DNA of 25,886 bases. Origin: a virus. A program made the translations under genes and the position numbers. The stretch covers positions 1 to 25,886 of the IMG/VR virus record IMGVR_UViG_3300042691_009502; one strand, given 5' to 3'. The notes beneath the pieces are model-generated. The model had not been told where the DNA came from, made no database searches, and was given only the letters and a program-made list of their open reading frames with translations. Of this stretch, positions 2,128 to 18,613 are shown in pieces; position 1 is the first letter of the stretch, and each line of letters starts with the position of its first letter.

Positions 2128-5100
2128 ATGGCAGTAATAAAAAAATTCGCAGAAGTTTTAACGCAAAATTTAACTTCGTTTGGAGCATTCATATTAGATA
2201 CCAACCCAAATTCTGAATACTTTAAGATAACAGAGTTTAAAGATACATTTACGGGTGGTAAGAATGGATTTCTAATTGAAGGTAGCGAGCATTTAAAAGA
2301 ATCTACAGAAATTAAAATTCAAATTTTAGATGTTGATGGGAATCCAGTTTATTACGAGCCAGGTAATGGTATTCCTGAGTATTATGAAGGTACATCTAAA
2401 TTAGTAGCTGTTTACGTTTACGATGATACACCAATTGGTTCTGCTAAAATAACAATTTTAGGTGAATTAAAAACTTATGTAGATGAAGGTGGTGTAATAA
2501 AACCTATTCCAGATGAATGGAAAGATGTTTATAATGTAAAGTGGGAAAAAACTTTTCAAATAAACAAACTTCTATCAAATGAAGATAAAGTTAGATTTTA
2601 TAAAAGACCTGTTGTAAACATAGATGAGATAGTAAAGCCTATTTTTAATAATGTAACAACTACAATAACACAAACGGGTTCTTTAAGTGGTATTGCACAA
2701 TCACCAATAGCAGGACAAAGATTAGTAGATGTTACAACTCCAACAACGTACTTATTAAGAATTAATGATTCTACAAATTGGACAGGTTCGGTAGTAGGCA
2801 CAACAATTTCAGTACCATCTTTAGGATATTCCACAACAGTAGATAATGTAATAAATAATAAAGATGTTTTAGTAATAACACCCTATACTGAAAATGGATT
2901 GGTATCCAATTTTTCAAATAAAGGATATACCGCATCATTCAATTATACAGAAGGTGTAAACAATTTAAAAACAGCTCTCACCGGTTCTTTTGCTAAAATA
3001 AATTTATCAGATTTAACAACATTTGTTGGGGATTGTGCTAGGGTAAAAATATTTAGAAAATCTCAATCGGATTTAGCTGATTATCAGTTTATACAAGAAA
3101 TAAGATTAGAGTCTAACGAATTACTAAGAGATTTAGAATCAACAACTAAAAACGAAGAATTTTATGGTATCTTTGATGCTGTTAATTTTAAAAATTATTG
3201 GGTAACATCTTCAAACAATGTAACAACAACATTTAATCAAAATTATTTATTTAATTCTATAAAATTAGATAGTAATGGTGCTAATAATTTTTATACATCT
3301 AAGTCTTTAGATATAACGGAGGGTACTGAATATACACTAAACTTTAATCTTAGAGTTGGAAATGGAGAAGTTTTAGCAGGAAATTATTTAAGAGCATTTT
3401 TAAGTGGTTCTAGACAATCAACTATTAATGGTTCTCCTGTAACAATACAAGTTGAACAAAATATTTCAACAATAACATCGGATAGTTCTTTATTACAAAA
3501 AAATGAATTATCTGCTAATTTTAAAGCAGAACAAATTAATAATGGAAAACTTTACTTTGAGGTAAAGGGTGATGGTTGGCATTTAGCTGATGTTAGTTTA
3601 CGCGCTTCACAAGAAACAGCATACTCACCTGATGCAATCACATTTATCCAAAGTGTACCTAGAACATTACCTGAGGAAACATTTTTATATCGTTTTGAAT
3701 TTTATGATATAAATAACAATTATATTCCTGTTTTAGTTGAAGCAAGTAAAACTTTTAATGGTGGTAATTTGCAAAGAATACAAAAAGGATTGGTATTTAA
3801 TCCTCGTTCTTTACAATTTCAATTTGATTCTGGTTCACAACCAGTTCCACCAACTGTAGTAGGGTTTACAGTTACTAAAAACCTATTAACGGGTTCAGTA
3901 ACTTACACATCACAATCGTTTGACTTTGATGGTAATGAATTATTTGGGGATAACTATACTTCATCAATTACGGTAGGTGGCGGATTTCCTGGTTTATTAG
4001 ATGATATAACCTCTGATGCACCAACAATGACAGTACAACATTTTACAGGTTCAAGAACTGATAAAATTGTACAATTAGTTAAAATAACTGGAGAGGTAGA
4101 GGGATTTACCGATACAATAATATTCAGTAGAGTATTAGATGGATTTGGTGGTGTAAATTATGTAATCAGACCATATAGAGGTACACAAATCAGAAATAGT
4201 AGTACATCTTCATTAGAAATTCAAGCGGTTCGTATTGATGGTGTTAATGATATTGAGTTAAGTAGTTTAACTAAACCAGAAAAAGGATGGCCGGATACAC
4301 AACTTCACGTTATATCACGCTCTTTAGAAGGTAATGAAAAATTTGTAAACCTTGCATTCGCATCATCAAGTAGATATATTTTAGGATTAACAACTGGTTC
4401 ATTGGGTAGTGGGCAGATAAATTATAATGCAGTTTTTAATAGAGATTCTATTGATGTTAGAAGAACAGTCTATATGATGTCATCTGCATCTGCTGCATCT
4501 GGACCTGCATTCCAAACATCTGGCTCAGTTTTAGCAAGTATAATTTTAGAAGATTTGCAAGATGGATTGGATACACCAGTTGTTATATTCAATGCAGATA
4601 CTTTTAATATTGACCCTAGAAACGAAAGAACGTTTAGACCTCAATTTGGATTTGCAACCGCATCATTTTATAAAAGGGGTAGTACAGATTTAATAACAGC
4701 ATCATTTCAGGTATTTCCATCAATGTCAATTAATCAAGATTGGACTCCTGAGTATTGGTTTTATTATACAACACAAAGTGTAGACCCAACAATTTCAGTT
4801 GTAGCAATTGATGAGAATAGAAGAATTATTCCAGCGGGAGCATTGAATTCGGTTGTACGTTCTCCTTTATCTCAAAGTAAAAATATTACTGTTAAATTTA
4901 CATACACCGAACCATATACATCGCCATCAACCCCAACGGCTTCTATATCAGTAGATAAAACATTTACCATAGTTCCGCAAGGTACACCTGGAGATGAAAC
5001 AATTGTGTTTGAAGTAAATCCGGTTGCTATTACATTAGCAGCAAATTCAAAAGGTATTGTAAATGATTATAAACCAAGTATTACTGATATTAGAGTTAAG

Positions 5101-8100
5101 CAAGGTTCAAGATATTTATCATTTAGTTCAAGCGCTGCATCTCATCCATTCTTTTCACATGGACAGTTTTACATAGCAAGTTCTTCTATTATAGAACAAA
5201 ATGTAAAAGCAGGTAATATACATTTTACTTCATCATTTGGAGTTCCTTATACAGCATCTCTTATTGTATCTCAATCATCAAACTTAATAGATTTGAGTGG
5301 TAGTGTTACATATCCACTTGTAATTCATCCATATTTTACATCATCTATATACACTGCGAGTGTTGTAGTAAATTATACAAAAGTATTAGATGGACCTCCG
5401 CCAATACAAATTGTTATATCACCAACATCGGTAGCAATTCCTGCGGATGAGGTTGGATTTGTATCATCATATACAAATGCAAACACATCTATAACTGTAA
5501 AAGAAGGTGATGACTTTTTATTATACACAGCATCTCAGGCACCTGGTACTTGGAAAATAAATTCAATAGAAACTAGAACTGGTAACGTTTGGAATATAAG
5601 AACAGGCTCATTAGTAACTGGTTCTGCTAGTAGTTCATTCGGAACATTTAATCGTTTTGATTATCCATATGTTTCAGCAAGTGCAACATATACAATTCAA
5701 GTTTATCCAAACGCTTTAGGTAGCGGACATCAATACACATCATCTATATTCCAAAGAACTCAAACATTTACAAAGAATGTTTCAGTACCAAACGCAAGAA
5801 CAGTAGAATTAAAAGCAAACCCTTATACTATAAATTACGATAGAGATGGATACAAAGTTTCTCCTGAAGGTGATGTTGAATTAAAAGCAACTGCACAAAA
5901 CTATACTGGTTCTACTTGGTTTACTTTATTCTATGTGGATACTGATGGTAGTGAAACACTTTATGATGGACCTTATTATGAAGGAGTTCCTGAATATACA
6001 TTTATTGTTCCTGGTACTGATGCTGCTGGGCCTGAAGAAAATAAAACTTGGAGAGTAAAATTAACCGATGGAAATCCATACACATCATCAATTTTAAATC
6101 CATATAGAGCAGAAGGTCAATTAACAATTGCTGGTATCAAAGCAGGGGCTGACGCGTACCAAATTGCAGCAGATAATATAAACACATCTATAACTGCAGA
6201 ATTGTTTGATACTAACACAAGTGGAACAGCTATTAAACTACCAACTTTTAAAGGAATTAATCAGTTAATAAACGTAACATCGGGAACATATCCAGCTCCA
6301 CAACCTACCGATTACGATTATCTTTACAACTTAATTGGTATATTGGGATATGCATCCGCATCTATTTTTTATAAATCACCTTGGATTACATTAGGTTCTA
6401 ATAGAGTAACAACTAACCCAGCTTCAATGCCTGATATTGCCGCATGGGATAAACCTGGAATCAATAGGAGTGGTGAAATTGTTTATAAAGTTGAATTTGA
6501 AGGATACTCATCAAATTTAGGAACAAACCCACCAACAAGACACACAGAGTTTGTAACTCAATCAATAGCTGTACAATTTACAGAACCAGCTCCATATGAT
6601 GCTAAATTGCAAAATGATAATTCTTCAATTGTATATAAAGTATCTGGAGAAGTAACTTTAGGTTCAACTTCTAATCTAATACGAGCATATAGAGGTAACT
6701 ATGAATTAGTTAATAGACCTGCTGGATTTACTGGAGCTCAAATTGATGCATATGGAAGTTCATCTTATGAATATCAATGTAGAGTTCAAGTTTATTCAAA
6801 ATCATCTCACATTACTTTAGATAACGGAAACTTAATAGTGGGTAGTTATTTAAGTGGTACGCCGGCAAGTATGCCTGGTGTAACCGCATGGAGTAGTCCC
6901 GAAACAAACCCAACTGCTGAAATTGTATATAAAATTTATTGTGAAGGTAGACAAGAATTAATTAAAACACAATCTTTATCAATACAATATGAAGGTAATA
7001 CTGGTCCTGGTATTGTGATGAGAGGACAGTGGGTTGAAACGGAAGATTATATTGGTTCGGTAGAAACTACAAATCAACGTAGAGATGCAGTAATATTCCC
7101 AGACCCAACGGGTAGTTCTGGTGAAACCCACTTTTGGGCAGCTATTAGTGGGTCTGGTCCTGGTACGTTTGATAATAATGCTGTTTTAGTTGGAAAGCAA
7201 TTACCAACAAATCCATTATCACCATCTTATACTGATACTGCATATTGGCAGTATTTGGGACAACAAGATTTCTTCGTAGCAGCTAAGATTGCAATATTTG
7301 AAGAATCTTATGTTAAAAATACTATCAACGTTGGTACATACAATAACACATCAAAATATGCAAATATTGTATTAGCAGGTGGAAGGCCGGACCCATACAT
7401 TTCAATAGGTCAGCATGGTACGGTTGGTACTGGTGGTACAAGCGGAACAAGTATAAACCCATCAACAGCAGGAGCAGCTGGAACTTCTGGTACAGGTATT
7501 ATTGGATATGATAGACCTGGTATTTGGATGGGATTATATGAGCAAGGGGCTAGTGGAACATTTGGTAGATTATCAATCAAAGATTATTCCGGTACAAACT
7601 ATATGAATTGGGATGGCACTACTCTAATTCTTAGTGGTTTATTGAACGCAGGTGGAATGAAACTTGGTAGAGGTGTAAATGGTGCTAATAATGGTTTATA
7701 TTTAAACGCAAACAATTATTGGTATGATAGTGGTACTGCTTTTAAAGTTGGAGGTTCGACAAATTATTTAGAATGGGATGGTACTAATTTAACTTTAAGA
7801 GGTTCATTAAGACAAGTTTCAAGTGGAAATCCTGAAGGTGAATTTAGAGGAGCTTGGGCATCTGGGACACAATATTATATAGATGATGTTGTAACATATG
7901 GTACGGTTCCTGGTGTATCTTCATATATTTCTTCTACAAATCACGTTTCTACAAATGATACAAACGTTAATACGGGGTATCCACCAAACGCAACAAATGC
8001 TTGGACATTATATGCTGCAGCAGGTACATCTGGTACAGCTGGTACGGGTGGTAGCTCTGGAACGGCAGGTACAGCAGGTGCTACAGGTCCTGGTGTTGTT

Positions 8101-9972
8101 TATAGAGGCGAATATGATGCAGCAACAGCTTATATTTTTCAAACAGGAGTTCGTAGAGATATTGTAAAATACTCTGGAGCATATTATCTAACAAAGCAGA
8201 ACACAACAGGAAACTTACCAACAAATACAACATATTGGGAATCATTTGGTGCACAATTTAGTTCGGTAGCAACTGATATACTTTTAGCACAAGATGCAAC
8301 TATTACACGTGGATTAGTGATGGGTAGTGATGGTAGTACAAGCGGATTTGTTAGAAGTGCAAATGCAGATACACTCACAACGGGTTCAGCTCCAGGTTTT
8401 TATATGAGAACTGATGGTCAGTTTAGATTAGGATATAATCCTGAAGATGTACACCATCCAGCTGGTCAAAAACCACCATATATGTTGTGGGATAATACCA
8501 CACTTACAATTAGAGGTAAAATTGAAACTGACCAAAATACTGTATCTCAATTGGGTAACTGGAAGGTTGAAAACGGAGCATTTATGGATAGCTCTGAGCA
8601 AATGGTGTTAGATGCTGGTATTAAACAAATAATAATAAAAGATTCATCCGATACCCCAAGGGTGTTCATAAAGCAATCAAATATTTCTAGTCCAAGTGGT
8701 ACTTCTGCAACTGCGGTTATTAACCCATTATCAACTTATAGTTTTGGGGCGGGAGAGCAATTTACTATTGGTTCTATTGATGTTAGTGAATACACATATG
8801 ATACCACTGGATTTTATGTATCCCAACCTGGAACATATACAATTTCTTCTGTAAACTGGGGAACTGGTGGTGGAATATATGCACAAGCAGATATGAATTT
8901 CAATGGATATCTTAGTTTATATATGCAAGCTGTTATATATAATACCGATGACTTAACTGGTACTTATATTGGTGGTATAGGGTTGGGTTCGCTTACTGGA
9001 GGAGGAATATATACGGCCGGTGATGAGGATAATACATATTTTTATAATGGAGGTACATTATCATTAACATTCCCAGCGCCGGGTACATATTATGTGCATA
9101 CTTACCTAGCAGTATATGGGTATATATCCGGAGGAACTGTAACTTTAAGTGGAGCCGATAATCCAGCATCAAATACATTTACAATTCAACAATCTCAAAC
9201 TGAATTGGGACAAGATGGATTTTTAGTTGTAGCAGATGCAAATAACTATGCTAAGATTCAAAGAACTACCACAGACCCAATAATTGATATTAAAACAAAT
9301 GGTACAACTCCAGGTTTAAGAATTACAAACGCTAACGGTTCCGCATCAGCGAAAGCAATTGAAATATTAGCTGGGGATTTAACTTTATCTGGAGCTGGTA
9401 ATAATATAATGGTTAATGGTGGATATATTGGAACGGAAAATACGGCAGGCGGTATTCGTTTTCAAACCGATGGGTCTAACTCTGTATTAATAGGTCAAAA
9501 CTGGCCATCCCAAGCATCAAACGTAGCAACTGCAAGATTGAGAATTGGTACTAAACTTGGTATAAGTGGTAGAGAACTAATATTTGATTCATCTACTCTA
9601 AGAGTTAAAACCAATATTGAAGATTATCCTAATAATGCATACAATAGTATAAAAAATTTAAAACCAGTCCTATATACACCTTTAAAAGTGGTAGATAGTA
9701 CTAGATATATAACTGATGGTGAGGATGATTATAGCGATTCATATCCAATGCCAAACGCTAAAGAATACATAGGTAAGCAGGGTGGATTTATAGCAGAGTG
9801 GTTAGATGCAGATCCTGAAATGAGAAGATATGTATCATATGGTGTTAGTGGTAGTTTAATTACTAAAGATGCGATAAACTATGATATGATTGTAGTTCCA
9901 TTAACTAAAGCAGTTCAAATTCTTATGGATAAAGTAGAAGCGTTGGAGGCACATATTAGTGGTTCTTTGTAA
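2128..9972 (+). CDS. Giant modular tail-fibre/adhesin-like structural protein with C-terminal S74 chaperone domain (2614 aa)
   Basis: This is the largest gene in the window. The C-terminus (about 2488-2614) matches the peptidase S74 intramolecular chaperone: SSTLRVKTNI at 2488-2497, then GGFIAEWLD, a later NYDMIVVPLTKAVQILMDKV segment and a short terminal coiled coil. Such domains trimerise fibres and then cut themselves off. Upstream, residues about 960-1400 hold at least three related Ig-like beta modules rich in TSSI/TAS. Two related modules (ITLG... PASMP... EIVYK) start near 1419 and 1561. Gly/Thr/Ser collagen-like tracts lie near 1762-1790 and 1966-1989. Segments near 1904 (GEFRGAWASG) and 1989 (GVVYRGEYD) resemble CBM5/12-type carbohydrate-binding repeats. 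Three WDGT-type repeats lie between 1824 and 2130. No signal peptide or membrane segment is seen. The protein is probably a receptor-binding fibre or baseplate-attached adhesin. It is very rich in Ser/Thr and sits beside a glycosylation cassette. The N-terminal 150 residues may anchor it to the baseplate, but I do not recognise them. Confidence 0.8.
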   Translation: MAVIKKFAEVLTQNLTSFGAFILDTNPNSEYFKITEFKDTFTGGKNGFLIEGSEHLKESTEIKIQILDVDGNPVYYEPGNGIPEYYEGTSKLVAVYVYDDTPIGSAKITILGELKTYVDEGGVIKPIPDEWKDVYNVKWEKTFQINKLLSNEDKVRFYKRPVVNIDEIVKPIFNNVTTTITQTGSLSGIAQSPIAGQRLVDVTTPTTYLLRINDSTNWTGSVVGTTISVPSLGYSTTVDNVINNKDVLVITPYTENGLVSNFSNKGYTASFNYTEGVNNLKTALTGSFAKINLSDLTTFVGDCARVKIFRKSQSDLADYQFIQEIRLESNELLRDLESTTKNEEFYGIFDAVNFKNYWVTSSNNVTTTFNQNYLFNSIKLDSNGANNFYTSKSLDITEGTEYTLNFNLRVGNGEVLAGNYLRAFLSGSRQSTINGSPVTIQVEQNISTITSDSSLLQKNELSANFKAEQINNGKLYFEVKGDGWHLADVSLRASQETAYSPDAITFIQSVPRTLPEETFLYRFEFYDINNNYIPVLVEASKTFNGGNLQRIQKGLVFNPRSLQFQFDSGSQPVPPTVVGFTVTKNLLTGSVTYTSQSFDFDGNELFGDNYTSSITVGGGFPGLLDDITSDAPTMTVQHFTGSRTDKIVQLVKITGEVEGFTDTIIFSRVLDGFGGVNYVIRPYRGTQIRNSSTSSLEIQAVRIDGVNDIELSSLTKPEKGWPDTQLHVISRSLEGNEKFVNLAFASSSRYILGLTTGSLGSGQINYNAVFNRDSIDVRRTVYMMSSASAASGPAFQTSGSVLASIILEDLQDGLDTPVVIFNADTFNIDPRNERTFRPQFGFATASFYKRGSTDLITASFQVFPSMSINQDWTPEYWFYYTTQSVDPTISVVAIDENRRIIPAGALNSVVRSPLSQSKNITVKFTYTEPYTSPSTPTASISVDKTFTIVPQGTPGDETIVFEVNPVAITLAANSKGIVNDYKPSITDIRVKQGSRYLSFSSSAASHPFFSHGQFYIASSSIIEQNVKAGNIHFTSSFGVPYTASLIVSQSSNLIDLSGSVTYPLVIHPYFTSSIYTASVVVNYTKVLDGPPPIQIVISPTSVAIPADEVGFVSSYTNANTSITVKEGDDFLLYTASQAPGTWKINSIETRTGNVWNIRTGSLVTGSASSSFGTFNRFDYPYVSASATYTIQVYPNALGSGHQYTSSIFQRTQTFTKNVSVPNARTVELKANPYTINYDRDGYKVSPEGDVELKATAQNYTGSTWFTLFYVDTDGSETLYDGPYYEGVPEYTFIVPGTDAAGPEENKTWRVKLTDGNPYTSSILNPYRAEGQLTIAGIKAGADAYQIAADNINTSITAELFDTNTSGTAIKLPTFKGINQLINVTSGTYPAPQPTDYDYLYNLIGILGYASASIFYKSPWITLGSNRVTTNPASMPDIAAWDKPGINRSGEIVYKVEFEGYSSNLGTNPPTRHTEFVTQSIAVQFTEPAPYDAKLQNDNSSIVYKVSGEVTLGSTSNLIRAYRGNYELVNRPAGFTGAQIDAYGSSSYEYQCRVQVYSKSSHITLDNGNLIVGSYLSGTPASMPGVTAWSSPETNPTAEIVYKIYCEGRQELIKTQSLSIQYEGNTGPGIVMRGQWVETEDYIGSVETTNQRRDAVIFPDPTGSSGETHFWAAISGSGPGTFDNNAVLVGKQLPTNPLSPSYTDTAYWQYLGQQDFFVAAKIAIFEESYVKNTINVGTYNNTSKYANIVLAGGRPDPYISIGQHGTVGTGGTSGTSINPSTAGAAGTSGTGIIGYDRPGIWMGLYEQGASGTFGRLSIKDYSGTNYMNWDGTTLILSGLLNAGGMKLGRGVNGANNGLYLNANNYWYDSGTAFKVGGSTNYLEWDGTNLTLRGSLRQVSSGNPEGEFRGAWASGTQYYIDDVVTYGTVPGVSSYISSTNHVSTNDTNVNTGYPPNATNAWTLYAAAGTSGTAGTGGSSGTAGTAGATGPGVVYRGEYDAATAYIFQTGVRRDIVKYSGAYYLTKQNTTGNLPTNTTYWESFGAQFSSVATDILLAQDATITRGLVMGSDGSTSGFVRSANADTLTTGSAPGFYMRTDGQFRLGYNPEDVHHPAGQKPPYMLWDNTTLTIRGKIETDQNTVSQLGNWKVENGAFMDSSEQMVLDAGIKQIIIKDSSDTPRVFIKQSNISSPSGTSATAVINPLSTYSFGAGEQFTIGSIDVSEYTYDTTGFYVSQPGTYTISSVNWGTGGGIYAQADMNFNGYLSLYMQAVIYNTDDLTGTYIGGIGLGSLTGGGIYTAGDEDNTYFYNGGTLSLTFPAPGTYYVHTYLAVYGYISGGTVTLSGADNPASNTFTIQQSQTELGQDGFLVVADANNYAKIQRTTTDPIIDIKTNGTTPGLRITNANGSASAKAIEILAGDLTLSGAGNNIMVNGGYIGTENTAGGIRFQTDGSNSVLIGQNWPSQASNVATARLRIGTKLGISGRELIFDSSTLRVKTNIEDYPNNAYNSIKNLKPVLYTPLKVVDSTRYITDGEDDYSDSYPMPNAKEYIGKQGGFIAEWLDADPEMRRYVSYGVSGSLITKDAINYDMIVVPLTKAVQILMDKVEALEAHISGSL
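7417..7497 (+). repeat. Collagen-like Gly/Thr/Ser tract in the fibre gene
   Basis: The codons spell repeated GT/GTS/GTG units (GTVGTGGTSGTS, then AGAAGTSGTG) around residues 1764-1790. Such tracts commonly form flexible or triple-helical stalks between fibre modules. A second, denser tract follows about 530 bp downstream. Confidence 0.6.
7597..8517 (+). repeat. Three WDGT-type beta repeats in the fibre
   Basis: Three short related units occur: YMNWDGTTLILSG (nt about 7600-7638), YLEWDGTNLTLRG (about 7765-7803) and YMLWDNTTLTIRG (8479-8517). The pattern is Y-[ML]-x-W-D-[GN]-T-x-L-x-[IL]-x-G. Comparable units occur in the central, beta-structured parts of phage host-specificity proteins, where they precede a receptor-binding tip. 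Confidence 0.65.
8023..8094 (+). repeat. Second collagen-like tract (GTSGTAGTGG type) in the fibre gene
   Basis: Residues about 1966-1989 read GTSGTAGTGGSSGTAGTAG and end in ATGPG, just before a GVVYRGEYD segment. The earlier GNTGPGIVMRGQW segment (about 1622-1634) has the same GPG-[IV]V-x-RG junction. The tract therefore belongs to a duplicated stalk-plus-binding-module unit. Confidence 0.6.
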
Positions 9973-9982
9973 CGTTTTAAAT

Positions 9983-10000
9983 ATATTTATATATTTATAT
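9983..10000 (+). promoter_or_regulatory. Doubled ATATTTAT motif, candidate promoter for the oxygenase-like gene
   Basis: ATATTTATATATTTATAT contains the conserved core twice in tandem within the 40-bp gap after the fibre gene. It ends 12 nt before the ATG at 10013. Function is inferred from recurrence at other gene starts. Confidence 0.35.
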
Positions 10001-10012
10001 TTAATAAAGGTT

Positions 10013-10603
10013 ATGGCACAAAAAATGAATATAATTGTTGTAGATGATTTCTATGGCAATCCGTTTGAAGTAAGAAATTTTGCTTTACAACAAGAATTTA
10101 ATGTAACTGGTGGATTTCCCGGATTTAGAACCAAACCAATGATAAACGATACTATCAAAGATGCGATAGAATATGTTGTAAGTCCTTGGGGTGGTAGAGT
10201 AATTGATTGGTTTGAGGATGGTCATACTGGAGCATTTCAGTACACAACAGAAGAGCATCATTCATGGATTCATTGTGATGGTGGTAATAATTGGGCAGCA
10301 GTTTTGTATTTAACACCACATGCCCCAATTTCATCTGGAACTGCTTTTTATAGACACAAATTAACAAAATTAGAATCGTTTCAACATACAAATGAAATAC
10401 CAACCGAAGTGGATTTAAATCATCCATATTTGAGAGATTATAAAGATATTACAAAATGGGAAATTACGGATTATGTATCTAACAAATTTAATAGATTGGT
10501 TTTATATAGAGCTGATTTATTTCACAAATCTATGGATTATTTTGGAAAAGATAAACACAATGGAAGATTATTTCAAGTATTCTTCTTTAACACACAAAAT
10601 TAA
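10013..10603 (+). CDS. DUF6445-like protein with a 2-oxoglutarate/Fe(II)-oxygenase-type HxD...H...R signature (196 aa)
   Basis: The start is placed at ATG 10013 (MAQKMNIIVVDDF). A longer in-frame start at 9959 would overlap the fibre gene and add a hydrophobic leader encoded by the AT-rich promoter-like gap, so I rejected it. The protein shows WIHCD (H87, D89), LFHKS (H171) and GRLFQVFFF (R185), the iron-ligand and 2-oxoglutarate-binding pattern of the double-stranded beta-helix oxygenases. The N-terminus (VVDDFYGNPFEVRNFA) is typical of DUF6445-like proteins. If active it would hydroxylate a protein, sugar or small molecule; the substrate is unknown. It lies between the fibre gene and the sugar cassette, with only 5 nt to the next gene, so modification of fibre or glycan is conceivable but unproven. 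Confidence 0.68.
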   Translation: MAQKMNIIVVDDFYGNPFEVRNFALQQEFNVTGGFPGFRTKPMINDTIKDAIEYVVSPWGGRVIDWFEDGHTGAFQYTTEEHHSWIHCDGGNNWAAVLYLTPHAPISSGTAFYRHKLTKLESFQHTNEIPTEVDLNHPYLRDYKDITKWEITDYVSNKFNRLVLYRADLFHKSMDYFGKDKHNGRLFQVFFFNTQN

Positions 10604-10608
10604 AAAAT

Positions 10609-10866
10609 ATGCAAGAAAAAACTGAAAAATTGGATGAACAAATTTTAAATAATTTGAAAGAATATCAATCAAAGCTAAGTGATTTTACATTTGAATTAGG
10701 ACAAATTGAAATTAATCTTTTACAATTAAAAAGCTATAAAAGTTCAATTGAAACCGAATACAAAAAAACAAAACTTGGTTTTGACGAGGTAGTAAAAGGT
10801 TTGGAAGAAAAATATCCAAATGGAGAAATTAATTTAACTGAAGGAACAGTAACATATCAAGAATAA
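10609..10866 (+). CDS. Small coiled-coil protein (85 aa), paralogue of the protein at 15414-15824
   Basis: This short, charged, helical protein has heptad-like spacing over most of its length. It contains ELGQIEI (29-35) and a C-terminal EEKYPNGEINLTEGTVTYQ (66-84). The protein at 15414-15824 carries DFGQIYI and DDKYPQGRINMQDGTIQYQ in the same order, so the two are paralogues. There is no signal peptide, membrane segment or catalytic motif. The start follows the oxygenase-like gene by 5 nt, with no Shine-Dalgarno sequence. I do not know its function; a small structural or assembly protein is most likely. Confidence 0.75.
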   Translation: MQEKTEKLDEQILNNLKEYQSKLSDFTFELGQIEINLLQLKSYKSSIETEYKKTKLGFDEVVKGLEEKYPNGEINLTEGTVTYQE

Positions 10867-10904: not shown

Positions 10905-13091
10905 ATGGCTAATAATATGAGAAAAAAATTGTTATATGTATGTCCGCACTTATCAACAGGTGGACAGCCTCAATATACCTACAAACAAATCAAACATTTT
11001 ATAAATGACTTTGATATTCAAGTTGTTGAAATAAACAATAGTGGTGGAGATGCTTTTGTTGTTCAAAAAAATAGAATAAAAGAATTAGTGCCTGTACATA
11101 CATTGGGTAGTAATAAAAAAGAAATTTTGGACCACATAAGAACTTTCAATCCAGATATAATACACTTTCAAGAAATACCTGAATACGATTTACCACTTGA
11201 TATAGTAGAAAGAATATTTTCAAAAGAAAGAAAATACTTCATAGTGTGTACAACACATGGTTCATTAACCAATCCATCTGATATTATTTACCAACCAGAC
11301 AAATATGTTTTAGTATCCGAATGGAGTAAACAAAGATTTGAAGGTGCTGACTTGGGTGTTGAACTTGATGTTTGGCAGTATCCTATCGAAGATTATATCT
11401 TTAGTAAAGATGATGCAAAAAAAGAATTAGGATTAGACCCAACATGGAAGCATGTGTTAATGGTTGGGTTATTCTCACCCGGTAAAAATCAAGGTGAAAT
11501 ATTTTCAATAGCTAGGCAATTAGAAAAATATAAAATTAAATTTCATTTTGTAGGCAATCAAGCTATGAATTTTGAAAGTTATTGGTCACCTATAATGAAA
11601 TACAAACCTGAAAATTGTATCATATGGGGTGAAAGAAATGATGTTGATACTTTCTACGCAGCTTGTGACCTTTTTTATTTTTCATCAAAATTAGAATTAA
11701 ATCCTTTATCAATTAAAGAAGCTCTTTCTTACAAAATGCCTTCTATATTTAGAAAACTTCATACCTATTTGGATACATATGATAATAACCCATTGGTAAC
11801 ATATATTGATGATGATTTAAAACTTACAAAGAGAATAATATTAGAAAAATTACAACCTGAGTTTAATGAAATACCTGGATGGTTTGCATATTCGGAATTA
11901 TATAATAGTATGGTTGATAGTGCATCTGGTGGAGAAACTTTTGTTGAGGTTGGTGCTTGGTTTGGTAAATCTACAAATTATTTATCATCAAAAATAAAAG
12001 AATCTGGAAAAGATATAAACTTTACATCAATAGACACTTGGAAAGGTACTGATGATGAAGATTTGCATCAAAATATTGTAAACTCTTTTAATGGAGATAT
12101 ATTTTATGAATTTGTTGATAACACAGTATTATCAGATAACTATGGTAGATTGAATACAATCAAAGATACTTCTAAAAACGCAGCTAATAACTTTGCAAAT
12201 AATAGTATTGATTTTATAATGATTGATGCAGGCCATTCTTATGAAGCATTGATGGAGGATTTAAATATTTGGTACAATAAAGTAAAACCAGGTGGTATAA
12301 TTAGTGGTGATGATTATGGGGTTTTTGATGGAGTTACACGAGCAGCAAATGAATATTTTTATGGACAATTTCATCAAGGATTTCGTTCATTTGTAAGAAA
12401 AAAACCTCGTATCCAAATTAAGCATATGTTGACTAGACCAACTGATATGAGAGAAAGAGTATCCATACAATCATTACAACAATTAGAAAGATATGGTATG
12501 TTCTATCAGCCAATTATAAACGAAGTATATGAAGGAATACCACCTTCTGAAAATTGTAGAAGACCGGAACACATTTCACCAACAAATACTCCAGGTGAAT
12601 TATGGCCTGGTGCCGGATTAGGTTGGATGACAGGTAGACACTATGGATGCTATTTGGCACATAGAAACGCATTGGAAACGATTGATGAAGAAAATTTTGA
12701 TTATACTTTGATATTTGAAGCAGATGCATTCATTTATACTGGATTGGAAGAATTTGTTGATGTTGTGAATAAAGCATGTTTCATGTCAGAGCTAAACGAT
12801 GCATACTTTATATCATTTGCAAATAATCCTTGTAGAGAAAGAACTAAGATAGATGAATTATTTTCTTTAACAGGACCTTCACAAGATTTGGCACATTGTT
12901 ATCTTATACCAAACCGAACTAAAGGTTGGTGGATGGACAGAATAAAAGATTGTGGATGGGATGTTGGTGACCTTTGGTATAATCATGTATTTTACCATCA
13001 TCCTATGAAACGTTATACAACAAACAAAATGTATAGTAAACAAGCCGAAGGATATTCACTATTAGATTTGACAGTTAAAACTTGGAGTTAA
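10905..13091 (+). CDS. Three-domain fusion: GT-B glycosyltransferase, SAM methyltransferase and GT25-like glycosyltransferase (728 aa)
   Basis: Residues about 7-320 look like a GT-B (GT4-like) glycosyltransferase: YVCPHLSTGGQ at the N-terminus, a VGLFSPGKNQGE hinge, and an E-x7-E motif (E264, E272) in LELNPLSIKEALSYKMPS. Residues about 330-490 form a class I methyltransferase with FVEVGAWFGKST (motif I, 346-356), FIMIDAGHSYEA (437-448) and GGIISGDDYG (463-472). Residues about 503-728 resemble GT25/LPS-type glycosyltransferases: HMLTRPTDMRER, GCYLAHRNAL (581-590) and the acidic IFEADA (603-608) in place of a DxD. The protein is soluble, without a signal peptide. The stop overlaps the next start in TAATG. 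It probably builds and methylates a glycan. Donor and acceptor are unknown, and each domain call is by motif only. Confidence 0.78.
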   Translation: MANNMRKKLLYVCPHLSTGGQPQYTYKQIKHFINDFDIQVVEINNSGGDAFVVQKNRIKELVPVHTLGSNKKEILDHIRTFNPDIIHFQEIPEYDLPLDIVERIFSKERKYFIVCTTHGSLTNPSDIIYQPDKYVLVSEWSKQRFEGADLGVELDVWQYPIEDYIFSKDDAKKELGLDPTWKHVLMVGLFSPGKNQGEIFSIARQLEKYKIKFHFVGNQAMNFESYWSPIMKYKPENCIIWGERNDVDTFYAACDLFYFSSKLELNPLSIKEALSYKMPSIFRKLHTYLDTYDNNPLVTYIDDDLKLTKRIILEKLQPEFNEIPGWFAYSELYNSMVDSASGGETFVEVGAWFGKSTNYLSSKIKESGKDINFTSIDTWKGTDDEDLHQNIVNSFNGDIFYEFVDNTVLSDNYGRLNTIKDTSKNAANNFANNSIDFIMIDAGHSYEALMEDLNIWYNKVKPGGIISGDDYGVFDGVTRAANEYFYGQFHQGFRSFVRKKPRIQIKHMLTRPTDMRERVSIQSLQQLERYGMFYQPIINEVYEGIPPSENCRRPEHISPTNTPGELWPGAGLGWMTGRHYGCYLAHRNALETIDEENFDYTLIFEADAFIYTGLEEFVDVVNKACFMSELNDAYFISFANNPCRERTKIDELFSLTGPSQDLAHCYLIPNRTKGWWMDRIKDCGWDVGDLWYNHVFYHHPMKRYTTNKMYSKQAEGYSLLDLTVKTWS

Positions 13092-14239
13092 TGATATACG
13101 AAAATTTAAAAAAGAATCTCAACAATAAAAGAAAAGTTGATAACAAAGTGTTTGTACATTTTGTTAGAGGCGCATTTGTTGAAATAAAAGGAAATATTCA
13201 AAAAAATTACAAAGTTAAATTTTTTGATAATAGAACGGGGAGATTGTTATTCAGTTCTGATATATCAACAAATATGTGGACAAAATGTAATGTTGAATAT
13301 TTTGTTGAATGGCGTATTGAAATATATGAAGGTGATAAGTTATGGTGGCATCATATATACAATGCACACAACAAAAGAGTTTATGTTGCTCTAGATTCTA
13401 AAGCATTGGGTGATAGTTTAGCATGGATTCCGTATGTAGAAGAATTTGGAAAAGTGCATGGAGCAAAAATGATTGTTTCAACTTTTATGAACACTATGTT
13501 TGAAGAAAAATACCCAAACATAGAATTTGTTGTTCCCGGTGTAAGTGTTGAAAATCTTTACGCTATGTACTCTATTGGTTTATTTTACAATGAAGATAAT
13601 ACAATTAATATTTACAAAAATCCAATAGACCCAAAGAAGCAAACAATGCAAAAAATGTGTTCTGATATATTGGGATTAGATTTTAAAGAAATAAAACCAA
13701 AATTAAAAGATAGAAAAATTTCAATAGATTCAAACTACAAACAAGTTTGTATAGGAATACATGGTACAGCTCAATCTAAATTTTGGAATAATCCAACTGG
13801 TTGGCAAGAAGTTGTAAATTGGTTAAATCAAAAAGGATATGTTGTGAAACTTCTTTCAAAAGAAGGTGAAAATTATATGGGAAACCAATTACCATCTGGA
13901 ATCGTAAGACATCCAGAAGGACCGTTAGAATTGGTTATGGATGAAATGAAAAAATCAAAAGCATTCATTGGTATTGGTAGTGGATTGAGTTGGTTGAGTT
14001 GGGCATTGGACGTACCAACAGTATTAATAAGTGGATTTTCTTATAGATGGGCAGAAATGGAAGATTGTATTCGTATTGGAGCACCCACTGGAAAATGTGA
14101 AGGATGCTTTAACCGATTGAGATTGGATCCTGGTGACTGGAATTGGTGTCCAGACCATAAAGGAACTGAAAGACAATTTGAATGTACTAAATCAATTACA
14201 TCCGAAATGGTAATCAAAGAATTGGAAAAATTTCTATAA
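13091..14239 (+). CDS. TibC/BAHT-like protein O-heptosyltransferase with a four-Cys iron-finger motif (382 aa)
   Basis: The start is taken as ATG 13091, sharing TAATG with the upstream stop. A TTG three codons earlier (13082) is possible but less likely. An N-terminal beta domain (about 18-95, with FVRGAFVEIKG and YKVKFFDNRTG) precedes ALDSKALGDSLAWIPYVEEF (100-119), a hallmark of bacterial autotransporter heptosyltransferases; D108 lies in ALGD, where the catalytic Asp of TibC is expected. The C-terminal part has IGIHGTAQSKFWNNPTGWQE and GIGSGLSWLSWALDVPT, typical of GT9-like sugar-nucleotide binding. Cysteines C336, C339, C353 and C365, ending in HKGTERQFECTKSIT, match the iron-finger region. 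Known members form dodecamers and move heptose from ADP-heptose to Ser residues of autotransporter repeats. The adjacent HldE-type genes fit this role. The phage acceptor is unknown. Confidence 0.88.
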   Translation: MIYENLKKNLNNKRKVDNKVFVHFVRGAFVEIKGNIQKNYKVKFFDNRTGRLLFSSDISTNMWTKCNVEYFVEWRIEIYEGDKLWWHHIYNAHNKRVYVALDSKALGDSLAWIPYVEEFGKVHGAKMIVSTFMNTMFEEKYPNIEFVVPGVSVENLYAMYSIGLFYNEDNTINIYKNPIDPKKQTMQKMCSDILGLDFKEIKPKLKDRKISIDSNYKQVCIGIHGTAQSKFWNNPTGWQEVVNWLNQKGYVVKLLSKEGENYMGNQLPSGIVRHPEGPLELVMDEMKKSKAFIGIGSGLSWLSWALDVPTVLISGFSYRWAEMEDCIRIGAPTGKCEGCFNRLRLDPGDWNWCPDHKGTERQFECTKSITSEMVIKELEKFL

Positions 14240-14631
14240 TGAAAAAGGTTTGGGTAAACGGAACTTTTGATGTTTTACACATCGGGCATATAAAACTTTT
14301 AGAATATGCATCATCTTTTGGAACTCTAAGAGTTGGCATTGATACTGATGAAAGAGTTAGAGAAAAGAAAGGTGAATCAAGACCATACAATTCATTGGAA
14401 GATAGAATGGGATTTATGCGTAGCATTAGATTTGTTGATAGTGTTGTTGCATTTGATTCCGATGAATCTCTTATAGAACACATAAAGCAATGGAGACCTG
14501 ATATTATGGTAATTGGGGATGATTACACATATGAACAAATAATAGGAAAAGAATTTATTCCTAAGATTGAATACTTTAAAAAAGTAGAGGGTATAAGCAC
14601 TTCAAAAATATTAGGAGATGGCAAAATATAA
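14239..14631 (+). CDS. hldC: HldE C-terminal/RfaE2-type heptose-phosphate nucleotidyltransferase (130 aa)
   Basis: This single-domain cytidylyltransferase-fold protein has NGTFDVLHIGHIKLLEYA (7-24) with the HxGH motif H14-H17. VGIDTDERV and RPYNSLEDR follow, then VIGDDY and the GISTSKI motif (118-124). This pattern is that of HldE/RfaE C-terminal adenylyltransferases, which convert D-glycero-beta-D-manno-heptose 1-phosphate and ATP to ADP-heptose. TagD-type glycerol-3-phosphate cytidylyltransferases share the fold and are the main alternative. The gene starts on the TAATG that ends the heptosyltransferase gene and overlaps the kinase gene by 14 nt, so the three are translationally coupled. 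It is a stand-alone domain; in many Gram-negatives it is fused behind the kinase as HldE. Confidence 0.8.
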   Translation: MKKVWVNGTFDVLHIGHIKLLEYASSFGTLRVGIDTDERVREKKGESRPYNSLEDRMGFMRSIRFVDSVVAFDSDESLIEHIKQWRPDIMVIGDDYTYEQIIGKEFIPKIEYFKKVEGISTSKILGDGKI

Positions 14632-15364
14632 AGTATTAGTAGTTGGAGAAAAATGCACAGATATTTTTGTATATGGTACAACCAACAGAAAATCACCAGA
14701 AGGAAATGGACCTGTTTTCATACCAAATAACGAAGTTTATGGAGATGGTATGGCATTAAATACGGCTAACAATTTAGCATCAATGGGATTACAAGTTGAT
14801 GTATTTTGTGATACTGGAAATATTACAAAAACAAGATATGTTGACGAAAATACTAATGAATTATACATAAGGGTAGACGAAAATGATATAGTAGAAAAGA
14901 TAAACTTATCAGATTTACCCAAATTAGACAACTATGATGCAATAGTTATATCCGATTATTGTAAGGGATTTTTGACTGAGGAAGATATATCTTATATTTC
15001 AAAACTACATAGGTTAGTAGTTTTAGATACAAAAAAATATTTAGGAAGTTGGTGTAAGGATGTATCTTTTATAAAACTAAATAGGTTTGAGGCTCAAAAT
15101 AACCATGATATAATAATAGAAAATAAATGGTTAGATGATAAGATAATAACCACTTTAGATGGTAGCGGAGCTTGTTATAAAGGTAATGTAATAAAAACCG
15201 AAAAGGTTGAAAATGCGGATGTAAGTGGGGCTGGGGATACTTTTGTAGCGGCGTTTGTTGCAAGATACTTAGATTCTGAAAATGTAGAAGAATCTATTGA
15301 TTGGGCAAATTATTGTGCCGGTTCTGTTGTACGAAAAAAAGGAGTTTCTGTATTTGGAAACTAA
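14618..15364 (+). CDS. hldA: HldE N-terminal/RfaE1-type PfkB-family sugar kinase (248 aa)
   Basis: PfkB features are clear: GEKCTDIFVYG (10-20), a SPEGNGPVF segment (26-34) reminiscent of the ISPEAPVPV of RfaE1, NTANNLASMG (48-57), VISDYCKGFL (110-119), and the catalytic DVSGAGDTFVAAF (201-213) with D207. HldA/HldE kinases phosphorylate D-glycero-beta-D-manno-heptose 7-phosphate to the 1,7-bisphosphate. At 248 residues it is shorter than the usual 310-330, apparently through loss of part of the lid region, so substrate preference could differ; another PfkB sugar kinase is the alternative. It overlaps the nucleotidyltransferase gene by 14 nt in another frame. The isomerase (GmhA), phosphatase (GmhB) and epimerase (HldD) steps are not encoded in this window and would have to come from the host or elsewhere in the phage. 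Confidence 0.78.
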   Translation: MAKYKVLVVGEKCTDIFVYGTTNRKSPEGNGPVFIPNNEVYGDGMALNTANNLASMGLQVDVFCDTGNITKTRYVDENTNELYIRVDENDIVEKINLSDLPKLDNYDAIVISDYCKGFLTEEDISYISKLHRLVVLDTKKYLGSWCKDVSFIKLNRFEAQNNHDIIIENKWLDDKIITTLDGSGACYKGNVIKTEKVENADVSGAGDTFVAAFVARYLDSENVEESIDWANYCAGSVVRKKGVSVFGN

Positions 15365-15413: not shown

Positions 15414-15824
15414 ATGGCAGGTTTAGATAATATACCACAGCAACAACAAATTACAATTGAAACAGCAAAAATTGATGCGGAAACTATGCAATCAATTAAT
15501 GATTTAAATCAGAAAATTCAGGGTTTGGTTTTGGATTTTGGACAAATCTACATTCGTAGAAAAGAAATTCAAGACGAAATGGTAAGAATGGATGATTTCT
15601 TAGAGAAAGGCGAAGATGAATTTAAAGTACTAAATACTCAATTAAGAGAAATTATTGATGGTTTGGATGATAAATATCCACAAGGAAGAATCAATATGCA
15701 GGATGGTACTATACAATATCAACCAGGCGCACCAACAAGAAAGCAACTTGCAGAAATGCAAAGACAGCAACAATCATCAACAATGCCTGATGGTTCAACT
15801 GGTATGAAAGTTGTAAAAGAGTAA
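15414..15824 (+). CDS. Coiled-coil protein (136 aa), longer paralogue of the protein at 10609-10866
   Basis: A Gln-rich N-terminus is followed by a helical, heptad-rich middle (about 20-85). DFGQIYI (41-47) and DDKYPQGRINMQDGTIQYQ (85-103) correspond to ELGQIEI and EEKYPNGEINLTEGTVTYQ of the 85-residue protein before the sugar cassette. It carries an extra Gln-rich, probably disordered C-terminal tail of about 30 residues. There is no signal peptide, membrane segment or enzyme motif. No Shine-Dalgarno precedes the ATG, which instead follows an AT-rich candidate promoter. The function is unknown; this may be the ancestral copy, with the shorter protein as a duplicate. Confidence 0.8.
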   Translation: MAGLDNIPQQQQITIETAKIDAETMQSINDLNQKIQGLVLDFGQIYIRRKEIQDEMVRMDDFLEKGEDEFKVLNTQLREIIDGLDDKYPQGRINMQDGTIQYQPGAPTRKQLAEMQRQQQSSTMPDGSTGMKVVKE

Positions 15825-15853: not shown

Positions 15854-18613
15854 ATGAGAGGATTAGCAAAATTTTTAGTAGAAACAATATTGGGAGAAGC
15901 GGCTAAGGTAGACAAAGTGGTTGTTGTCTATTCAGGCCGCTTTCAACCATTTCATAAGGGTCACTACGCAACGTATGACCATTTGGTTAAGAAGTTCGGA
16001 AAAGATAATGTTTATATAGGAACTTCTGATGTAACCGATTCAAAAAAATCTCCATTTAATTTTAAGGAAAAGAAAGTCATTATGACAAAAATGTTTGGTA
16101 TCCCAACAAACAAAATTGTTAATGTCCGTAATCCTTATGCACCACAAGAAATACTTAATAAATTTAATGAAGATACTACTGGTTTTATAACTGTAGTTGG
16201 TGAGAAAGATGAAGCACGTTTAGGTGGTAAATATTTCATACCATATAAAGGAAAGGTAGTAGAACCTTATTTAGAAAGAGGATATGTTTATGCAGCACCT
16301 GCACAACCCAACGCTATTAGTGGAACTGATGTTCGTTATTGGTTAAGTGCTGGTAATGAGGCTGATAGAAAGAAAGGTTTTATGAAAGCATATCCTAAGT
16401 TTGATGAGCAAGTATTTAAAATGATTACTCTAAAACTTAAATCTCTTAAAGAATATATTAACGAAGAAATAAAATTAAATGTTAAGGTTGGTGATGAAAT
16501 TCTTATGGGTAAATTTAAGAACAAAAAAGTTCTTGTTAAATCCATAGGTAAAGATGAATGGGGAATGCCAACAATTAATGGTAAGAAAGCAGTAACTTTT
16601 AGAATTCCTAAAAAAGAAAATTTAAAGGAAGCAACTGGAGGAGCCGCAGGTTTTACAGCAGGTGACGAACCAGATATGTCATTTGTAGCAGATGGGCAAA
16701 AAAGAATATTAAACAAATATAAGCCTGAAAATTGGTATAAGCAAGGTGGGTATGTCCAGTTAGAAGAACCAACAGCAGATGCTATGCGTGGTAGAGGTAA
16801 AAATAAAGATAACGAATCACAATTTAGAAAAGCTATATACAAAGTAAAAAATGTAGTTCAAAGTACACTTAATCCAGCAGATGACCCTCACACTGTAGAA
16901 GATTGGCAGCAAATTAATAGAGAAACACCTTTGGAAAAACCTAAAAGATTTTGGGAACTTCCTAAAAATCAAAAACCTCAAATAATTTCAAAAGAAGATA
17001 TAAATGAAATCATTGATGAAGTTGAACAAGAATTATTAGATGAAATGGGTTTTCCTGGCGGAGCTGGTGTTGGTCTGAGTTTACCAGGTGGATATATTAA
17101 TGGAGCACCAAATCCAAAAGATGTTAAGAAATTAAAATCTAAATTGGATAAAGATGGTAGTGAAGAATACACTAAAGTAAAAGAAGATAAGATACCTGGT
17201 GGATTGGCAAAGGGAATGTCATTATCAGATATTGCAAAACATCATAATATAAGTCCACAAACTTTAAAAAATGAATTCATCAAAGGATATGCGGTTGAAA
17301 GAGAGCATACTACTGATGTAGAAGTTGCAAAAGAAATTGCATTAGACCATTTATACGAAGACCCAAATTATTATAGTAAATTATCAAAGATTGAAACTCC
17401 TTTAAGTGAGGGTTTACTTTTAGAAGGTGGTGCGTATGGACATATGGCACATCCATTTGATATTGAAATGGGTTTAACATTTGGTGACCTTAAACAAATT
17501 GTTGTAAAAGCATTAAATGGTGATTTGGAATTAGCAAGAGAAAAAACTGATGGACAGGCATTAGCAATTAGTTGGGTGAATGGTAGATTAGTTGCGGCTC
17601 GTAACAAATCACACCTAAAGAACAAAGGAGCTGGTGCTATGACAATAGGACAGGTAGCAGATAAGTTTGCCGGTAGAGGTGGATTGACGGATGCATATAA
17701 TTACGCAATGAAAGATTTATCTGCGGCAATAGCAGCATTATCCGAACCACAACGTAAAATGATATTCAAGAGTGGAAGTTGTTTTATGAATTTGGAAGTA
17801 ATATATCCAACTTCAGTAAATGTAATTCCTTATAATCAACCACTATTAGTATTTCATGGTACATTTGAATACGATAAAGAAGGAAATATAATTGGTGAAA
17901 ATCAACAAGCAGCTAGAATATTGGCTGGTATGATTAAGCAAGTAAATGCACATGTTCAATCTAAGTACACAATACAAGGACCACCAATGCAGAAACTCCC
18001 AAAATCAGAAAATCTTTCTAAACTACAAGGAAAGTACATTTCAATGATTTCAAAACTTCAATCTGAATTTGGATTAAAAGATTCCGATGGTGTGGCTGAT
18101 TATCATCAAGCATGGTGGACTAAGTTTGTAGAAAAAGGTGCAAAAAAATTAGATACACAAGAAAAAATAGGATTGGTTAAAAGATGGGCTTTTGGAGATA
18201 AATCATTCCGTATTAATACAATACAAGACCCTAAAATAAAAGCATGGGCTGAGGGAGTTGATAAACAAGACCAACAAAAAATATCAAAACAAAACTTAAT
18301 GAAGTTTGAAGAAATATTTTTAGGTGTTGGTGCAGAAGTTCTCTCATTTATGAGTTCCGTACTTACAGCAAATCCTGAATCTGCAAAAAGACAGATGGTT
18401 GGTAGATTGCAATCAACTATACAACAAGTGAAAGCAAGTGGAGACCCTAAAAAGATTGAAAAACTTAAATTAGAATTACAAAGATTAGAAGCTTTGGGTG
18501 GATTTGAAAAAATTGTACCAAATGAGGGTATTGTTTTTGTGTATAATGGTAATACATACAAATTGACAGGAGCATTTGCGCCGTTGAATCAGATATTGGG
18601 TATATTTTTCTAA
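15854..18613 (+). CDS. Multidomain protein: NadM-like nucleotidyltransferase, DUF5661-like and nucleic-acid-ligase-like domains (919 aa)
   Basis: Residues about 20-195 form a nucleotidyltransferase with SGRFQPFHKGH (27-37) and AISGTDVRYWL (154-164), closest by eye to NadM/PPAT-type adenylyltransferases. Residues about 444-512 (GLAKGMSLSDIAKHHNIS, then EREHTTDVEVAKEIALDHL) resemble DUF5661. Residues about 545-919 resemble a covalent nucleotidyltransferase/ligase: motif I K564-TDG, FMNLEVI (644-650), LLVFHG (664-669), EGIVF (891-895) and a late Lys in TYKLTG (K903). The linker at 200-440 is low in complexity. LxE motifs followed by a small residue lie near the N-terminus (LGE15/A16), at LKE259/A260 and at LLE524/G525, close to domain borders, so prohead-protease processing is possible. 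Its N-terminal FLVETILGEA resembles LLIETHLFEG in the protease itself. Substrates are unknown. Confidence 0.72.
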   Translation: MRGLAKFLVETILGEAAKVDKVVVVYSGRFQPFHKGHYATYDHLVKKFGKDNVYIGTSDVTDSKKSPFNFKEKKVIMTKMFGIPTNKIVNVRNPYAPQEILNKFNEDTTGFITVVGEKDEARLGGKYFIPYKGKVVEPYLERGYVYAAPAQPNAISGTDVRYWLSAGNEADRKKGFMKAYPKFDEQVFKMITLKLKSLKEYINEEIKLNVKVGDEILMGKFKNKKVLVKSIGKDEWGMPTINGKKAVTFRIPKKENLKEATGGAAGFTAGDEPDMSFVADGQKRILNKYKPENWYKQGGYVQLEEPTADAMRGRGKNKDNESQFRKAIYKVKNVVQSTLNPADDPHTVEDWQQINRETPLEKPKRFWELPKNQKPQIISKEDINEIIDEVEQELLDEMGFPGGAGVGLSLPGGYINGAPNPKDVKKLKSKLDKDGSEEYTKVKEDKIPGGLAKGMSLSDIAKHHNISPQTLKNEFIKGYAVEREHTTDVEVAKEIALDHLYEDPNYYSKLSKIETPLSEGLLLEGGAYGHMAHPFDIEMGLTFGDLKQIVVKALNGDLELAREKTDGQALAISWVNGRLVAARNKSHLKNKGAGAMTIGQVADKFAGRGGLTDAYNYAMKDLSAAIAALSEPQRKMIFKSGSCFMNLEVIYPTSVNVIPYNQPLLVFHGTFEYDKEGNIIGENQQAARILAGMIKQVNAHVQSKYTIQGPPMQKLPKSENLSKLQGKYISMISKLQSEFGLKDSDGVADYHQAWWTKFVEKGAKKLDTQEKIGLVKRWAFGDKSFRINTIQDPKIKAWAEGVDKQDQQKISKQNLMKFEEIFLGVGAEVLSFMSSVLTANPESAKRQMVGRLQSTIQQVKASGDPKKIEKLKLELQRLEALGGFEKIVPNEGIVFVYNGNTYKLTGAFAPLNQILGIFF

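Follow-up and report, generated by a model that had tools for sequence, protein, structure and literature searches.

A predicted phage enzyme from a second branch of the TibC/Aah superfamily and its genomic association with collagen-like repeat proteins

Introduction

The TibC/AAH enzymes (BAHT; NCBIfam family TIGR04414; PDB entries 4rap and 4rb4) are known from autotransporter adhesins, and the family and its fold have been described. The acceptor of the GT9 heptosyltransferases such as WaaC and WaaF is lipopolysaccharide (LPS) and not protein, and to our knowledge these enzymes have neither a beta domain nor the Cys motif of the TibC family. For the supply of the donor, the described system is HldE, the kinase/adenylyltransferase of ADP-heptose synthesis. 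In the BclA-type collagen-like proteins of bacteria, the Gly-X-Y stalk carries O-glycans. In this study, we analysed the 25,886-base virus record IMGVR_UViG_3300042691_009502 of IMG/VR, from a freshwater phage, taken whole and hereafter referred to as the window, and confirmed in it an open reading frame (ORF) at 13091-14239 for a TibC-like protein (the window enzyme), to which an earlier note on this DNA had drawn attention. The record itself is probably fragmentary, so that genes beyond its ends are unseen.

By its sequence, the window enzyme belongs to a second branch of the TibC/Aah superfamily, in which phage enzymes occur together with bacterial ones. We consider it probable that this enzyme starts O-glycans on collagen-like repeats of the phage's own fibres, and that the products of neighbouring genes extend and methylate them. 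The name 'Glycosyltransferase Aah/TibC' has already been given by automatic annotation to one protein of an uncultured phage; in our literature search, no title or abstract was found that links a TibC/Aah-type enzyme to phages or to collagen-like repeats, nor did searches for heptose glycosylation in phages, ADP-heptose in cyanophages or glycosylated collagen of phages yield anything relevant.

Results and Discussion

Family assignment and predicted fold of the window enzyme

The reading frame is open from the ATG at 13091 to the stop at 14239 (382 amino acids), the ATG overlaps the stop codon of the upstream gene (TAATG), and the reverse strand of the same segment has stops throughout. Against TIGR04414 (hepto_Aah_TibC) the window enzyme scored 281.3 bits, above the curated equivalog cut-off of 200, and the phmmer search of PDB sequences gave TibC (4rap) at E 2.6e-51 and LPS heptosyltransferase I at E of about 0.4. 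The AlphaFold2 model, built with a 29-row alignment, reached a predicted local distance difference test score (pLDDT) of 90 and a predicted template modelling score (pTM) of 0.86, and its residues 19-101 form eight strands that precede the GT-B core and represent the predicted N-terminal beta domain. With this model as the Foldseek query, the top 21 PDB matches were all TibC chains (4rap_D, template modelling (TM) score 0.86 over 373 columns), while the fold match to WaaC and heptosyltransferase II was poor, with TM scores of 0.44-0.50. The window enzyme shares the GT-B fold with the GT9 enzymes and gave a weak match to Pfam GT9 (27.6 bits, cut-off 22); the score for Pfam PF21129 was 18.1 bits, below its cut-off of 27. 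The identity as a GT9 LPS heptosyltransferase was rejected, because NCBIfam heptsyl_trn_I gave 32 bits against its cut-off of 185, the TM scores were low, and TibC fits better.

The sequence ALGDSLAWIPYVEEF is located at residues 105-119 and RQFECTKSIT at residues 361-370, and Cys 336/339/353/365 correspond to the four Cys of the TibC iron finger. The catalytic base D110 and the sugar-site residues T226, K230 and W305 of TibC are all kept, as D108, T226, K230 and W301, respectively. The thumb tip is Tyr262-Met263, differing from Phe-Val of TibC and still hydrophobic or aromatic, and F363 is kept. R286 of TibC, which contacts adenine, is replaced by V282. The TibC-like identity claimed in the earlier note is thus upheld by the family score and by the predicted fold, and the model gave no sign of the GT9-type enzyme without the beta domain that the note had named as a refutation; the family signature described there is present in its three elements but incomplete, as R286 is lost. 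The window enzyme can be assigned to TIGR04414, the TibC/Aah family, in its broad sense. We advise against listing it with the autotransporter heptosyltransferases in the strict sense, since two of their features, R286 and, within this possibly fragmentary record, an autotransporter partner, were looked for and not found.

Two branches of the superfamily

Single-protein scans of IMG/VR yielded 217 and 299 relatives of the window enzyme in overlapping sets. Among annotated phages the enzyme was detected in four records only, Microcystis phage Mel-JY01 and three huge-phage records, two of which seem to be one and the same genome, and a narrow scan using the domain from LR756504 gave one locus. 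The TibC-like domain lies inside an ORF of at least 690 amino acids in 29 of the 48 phage representatives (75% identity; counted by hand), and in the fused ORFs examined the extra domains were glycosyltransferase family 4 (GT4) or methyltransferases.

The tree covers 79 rows: 20 of the classical TibC class (with two pairs of identical rows), 38 from phages, and 21 of the second branch that come from bacterial genomes or metagenome-assembled genomes (MAGs); the partial bacterial row L598 was left out. All 20 classical rows formed one clade (100/100), and the phage and second-branch bacterial rows were mixed on the other side. Ten of the second-branch bacterial rows, nearly all from methanotrophs, made up a group (100/100) nested in a larger assemblage of mixed origin in which phage rows predominate (99/96); their nearest phage neighbours joined them at 92/90. 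A phage clade, for which the earlier note had proposed to look, was found only in part: the phage rows stand apart from TibC, but a single phage-only clade as a general rule was rejected, since the tree shows five changes of label. Several of the second-branch 'bacterial' rows are MAGs (Rickettsiaceae, Pacearchaeota and Nitrosotalea) and may be mis-binned phage contigs. Throughout the tree the equivalents of the catalytic Asp, Lys230 and Trp305 are kept (79/79 rows), each of the four Cys is kept in 78/79 rows, and all four are present in 38/38 phage rows. Some bacterial genomes, G342 (locus L587) and G016 among others, carry two or three classical TibC-class genes.

Association with Gly-X-Y repeat proteins in bacteria

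A Ser/Thr-rich Gly-X-Y ORF of at least 10 triplets was located within two genes of the enzyme in 13 of the 21 second-branch bacterial rows versus none of the 20 classical rows (Fisher p 1e-5, relatedness ignored); the flanks searched were about 1.5 kb for the classical loci (all but L183) and for four second-branch loci, and up to 10 kb for most others. Among 201 order-level genomes of Methylococcales, the Gly-X-Y gene was close by in 6 of 7 second-branch loci (adjoining in 5 and two ORFs off in 1), and 3 of the 4 classical loci tested there had TIGR04415 strand-loop-strand repeats adjoining the enzyme. The enzyme loci of methanotrophs are chromosomal, with housekeeping genes around, and the repeat proteins near the enzyme have (Gly-Thr-Ser)-type repeats, mostly with a signal-peptide-like start. 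Such secreted-looking Gly-Thr-Ser proteins adjoin the enzyme at L166, L167, L170, L171, L172, L595 and L597, and the methanotroph repeat proteins that were scanned (L591, L592, L595 and L597) showed weak resemblance to collagen-like adhesins.

Association with Gly-X-Y repeats in phages

Exact five-unit Gly-[S/T]-[S/T] stretches, one or more per record, were found in 31 of 50 enzyme-positive phage records, as compared with 0 of 50 random viral records picked by size from 80. The enzyme-positive set was hand-picked as diverse or large and several members were known beforehand to carry repeats; after dropping two small known carriers (L104 and L114), the count is 29/48. In the reverse direction, the enzyme was detected in 20 of 80 records coding for GTSGTSGTSGTSG (19 above the cut-off), these 80 being all such records among the matches listed (at least 120 stretches), versus 0/50 random records, 1/50 records of Gly-Pro-X collagen and 1/20 TerL-related records. 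The Gly-Pro-X records were hand-picked from 65 passing the filter out of 79, and the 15 omitted include some richer in Ser/Thr or poorer in Pro. The TerL-related controls for the enzyme search were 20 of 62, including G099, an enzyme-positive phage; those for the repeat search were 29 of 62 plus one Flavobacterium phage. Since nearly all viral records may be fragments, absences in any of these sets are weak evidence.

Two window-clade records on longer contigs carry long repeat proteins. In the L045 record, from a close relative of the window phage, a protein of 4539 amino acids (L622:294-13913; 25% Ser) includes 444 Gly-X-Y triplets and matches Pfam Collagen at 441 bits; a second repeat protein is also present, and about 30 kb or more lies between the repeats and the enzyme. 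The L044 record encodes two repeat proteins of 897 and 1082 amino acids. The huge 735-kb phage LR756501.1 (the L083 record) gave 1277 matches to the five-unit Gly-[S/T]-[S/T] pattern. Taken together, the association of the enzyme with repeat proteins suggests that phages sugar-coat their own fibres.

Several observations weigh against such a role. Repeats were found in 10 of 30 TerL-related records including one enzyme-positive record, and hence in 9 of the 29 without a known enzyme copy, so that the contrast with the enzyme-positive set is weaker (p 0.007, Fisher, relatedness ignored); of these 29, 19 had been searched for the enzyme, the Flavobacterium phage gave no match, and in 9 small ones the check covered the stored stretches. 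The repeats therefore do not require the enzyme, at least within one fragment. Likewise, 60 of the 80 repeat-coding records among the matches listed show no enzyme, the huge phage LR756504 has the enzyme and no five-unit Gly-[S/T]-[S/T] stretch, and a repeat gene lies within two genes of the enzyme in just 8 of 48 phage representatives. Many window-clade fragments are without Gly-X-Y repeats, the fibre of the window itself shows no more than two short runs, of 5 and 8 triplets, and R286, needed for TibC activity, is lost in the window enzyme. Of these points, three raise the most doubt: records that have repeats but no enzyme, the missing R286, and the shortness of the runs in the window fibre.

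The repeats without the enzyme, together with the distance between the two genes in phages, often tens of kb, are what would be expected if the link were indirect, both being common in large freshwater phages, and if the true target were another virion protein, for instance the 2614-amino-acid fibre outside its short runs. We judge this to be rather improbable, because on bacterial chromosomes, too, the enzyme is paired with a repeat gene, there at a short distance, and because the Gly-Pro-X collagen records were without enrichment for the enzyme.

The fibre of the window as candidate acceptor

Within the window, the candidate acceptor is the 2614-amino-acid fibre, which is richer in Ser and Thr than four other window proteins. 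It gave no NCBIfam match and thus contains no TIGR04415 strand-loop-strand repeat in this possibly fragmentary record, and no autotransporter domain was found in Pfam scans of 10 of the main window ORFs, among them neither terminase nor portal. An AIDA-type autotransporter acceptor in the window was rejected on the absence of TIGR04415 from the fibre. The statement of the earlier note that no autotransporter is in view holds for the proteins so scanned. The note had further supposed that the acceptor must be different or be a host protein; a different acceptor is probable, and the associations above favour collagen-like Gly-X-Y fibre repeats of the phage over a host autotransporter. The interpretation given in that note is, on the whole, partly supported.

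Neighbouring genes and the nature of the donor

The features of the locus are listed in Table 1. Upstream of the enzyme the gene order is fibre, DUF6445 protein, an 85-amino-acid protein and the GT4/methyltransferase/GT25-like protein; downstream it is nucleotidyltransferase, kinase, a cytidyltransferase-like protein of 919 amino acids, terminase and portal.

Table 1. Positions of the window enzyme, its neighbours and the Gly-X-Y runs of the fibre
Feature	Position	Strand	Basis
TibC/Aah-like (TIGR04414) protein O-heptosyltransferase homologue, 382 aa (amino acids)	13091..14239	+	family score, motifs, predicted fold
Nucleotidyltransferase, 130 aa, HIGH motif	14239..14631	+	best NCBIfam family HldE domain II (heptose-1-P adenylyltransferase), below cut-off
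Short PfkB-type kinase, 248 aa, GAGD motif	14618..15364	+	best NCBIfam family HldE domain I (heptose-7-P kinase), below cut-off
GT4 glycosyltransferase + Methyltransf_24 + weak GT25-like, 728 aa	10905..13091	+	domain scan
Tail-fibre-like protein, 2614 aa, candidate acceptor in the window	2128..9972	+	
Fibre, first short Gly-X-Y run (5 triplets; residues 1761-1775)	7408..7452	+	
Fibre, second Gly-X-Y run (8 triplets; residues 1966-1989)	8023..8094	+	
DUF6445 protein (PHROG minor coat protein), neighbour	9989..10603	+	

According to PMC4358343, R286 of TibC forms a hydrogen bond with N1 of adenine. The equivalent residue is Arg in 20/20 classical rows, 7/21 second-branch bacterial rows and 2/38 phage rows, a distribution in line with an enzyme of the same fold and a protein target that uses a nucleoside diphosphate sugar other than ADP-heptose, differing in the base or not being a heptose. 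In the same direction, the best matches of the window nucleotidyltransferase to solved structures are cytidylyltransferases (for ethanolamine-phosphate, 1.9e-18; TagD, 8.1e-17), and 43 of the 80 window-clade loci, close relatives from IMG/VR, have neither donor-type gene, as compared with 28 having both, 8 the nucleotidyltransferase alone and one not judgeable. This alternative nevertheless appears unlikely, since the nucleotidyltransferase and the kinase have the two HldE domains as their best NCBIfam families (102.7 bits against a cut-off of 181.5 for domain II and 98.7 against 345 for domain I), and the remaining sugar-site residues checked are kept, with Asp, Lys and Trp in all rows of the tree. 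The pair differs from HldE in being two short separate proteins far below the cut-offs. Among solved structures, the kinase matches a heptose-7-phosphate kinase.

The glycosyltransferases of phages are read in PMC7029224 and PMC10202952 as acting on the host surface or on phage DNA, and for aquatic T4-like phages a host-surface target is the usual reading (PMC7029224). Under that reading the window enzyme would modify a surface structure of the host, either its LPS or an adhesin, and one purpose could be the exclusion of superinfecting phages; proposals of this kind are common for the glycosyltransferases and rfaE genes of phages. The carriage of related kinase genes by cyanophages agrees with this reading. 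The phage context points elsewhere: the order of fibre, glycosyltransferase/methyltransferase, enzyme, terminase and portal is conserved, the fibre being upstream in 49/49 of the window-clade loci where it is seen (of 80) and the 728-amino-acid gene being present in 78/80. As the fold and the family score also indicate a protein and not LPS as the target, and as the second-branch bacterial copies lie near Gly-X-Y proteins and not AIDA repeats, we regard a host-surface target as improbable.

Some further features of the region were noted. The small proteins at 10609-10866 (p85) and 15414-15824 (p136) seem to cross-match in relatives, some loci having p136 in the p85 slot, and they are perhaps paralogues flanking the glycosylation genes. 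The 919-amino-acid protein (15854-18613), with an NMN-adenylyltransferase-like N-terminus and DUF5661, adjoins the terminase module; in the Flavobacterium immuto phage, a NadR-like gene is found in the equivalent region.

Proposed role of the second-branch enzymes

Homology, predicted fold, branch structure, synteny, fusions and genomic associations are established by the present analysis. For the glycosylation of the phage's own fibres, we propose the following scheme. As with TibC, the enzyme would most likely act in the cytoplasm, where heptose is moved from a nucleotide donor onto Ser residues of a protein with many repeats; we infer that it holds a metal and forms a 12-mer. The acceptor would be the fibre stalks of the phage itself, with their collagen-like (Gly-Ser/Thr-X)n repeats, instead of the strand-loop-strand repeats of autotransporters. 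The co-encoded GT4 and methyltransferase domains, which in many other phages are fused to the TibC-like domain, would in a following step extend and methylate the sugar, and the neighbouring kinase and nucleotidyltransferase, which some members of the clade have, may help to replenish the donor. The purpose might be a stiffened or shielded fibre, or a change of adsorption. In comparison with TibC/AAH, the phage branch is accompanied by Gly-X-Y repeat proteins with no autotransporter partner seen; as to the BclA-type proteins, the collagen-like stalk is shared, whereas the enzymes and organisms are others and the phage glycan is predicted only.

A wider proposal, which we put forward tentatively and short of an even chance, is that many freshwater phages, from T4-like to jumbo, code for a self-contained machine hyperglycosylating hundreds of Ser/Thr on giant collagen-like stalks. 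It would comprise a TibC-branch transferase for the first sugar, joined by fusion or linkage to GT4 and methyltransferases, and sometimes the synthesis of NDP-heptose; methanotrophs would have taken over the enzyme for a secreted Gly-Thr-Ser protein, and these bacteria, some of them isolates, offer small candidate pairs of enzyme and acceptor that are directly testable in E. coli. If this is true, collagen-like repeats would be a second natural acceptor class of the TibC superfamily, and the proposal would explain both the purpose of the long Gly-Ser/Thr-X stretches in the fibres of aquatic phages and why such phages carry the glycosyltransferase and heptose genes that are usually read as host LPS modifiers.

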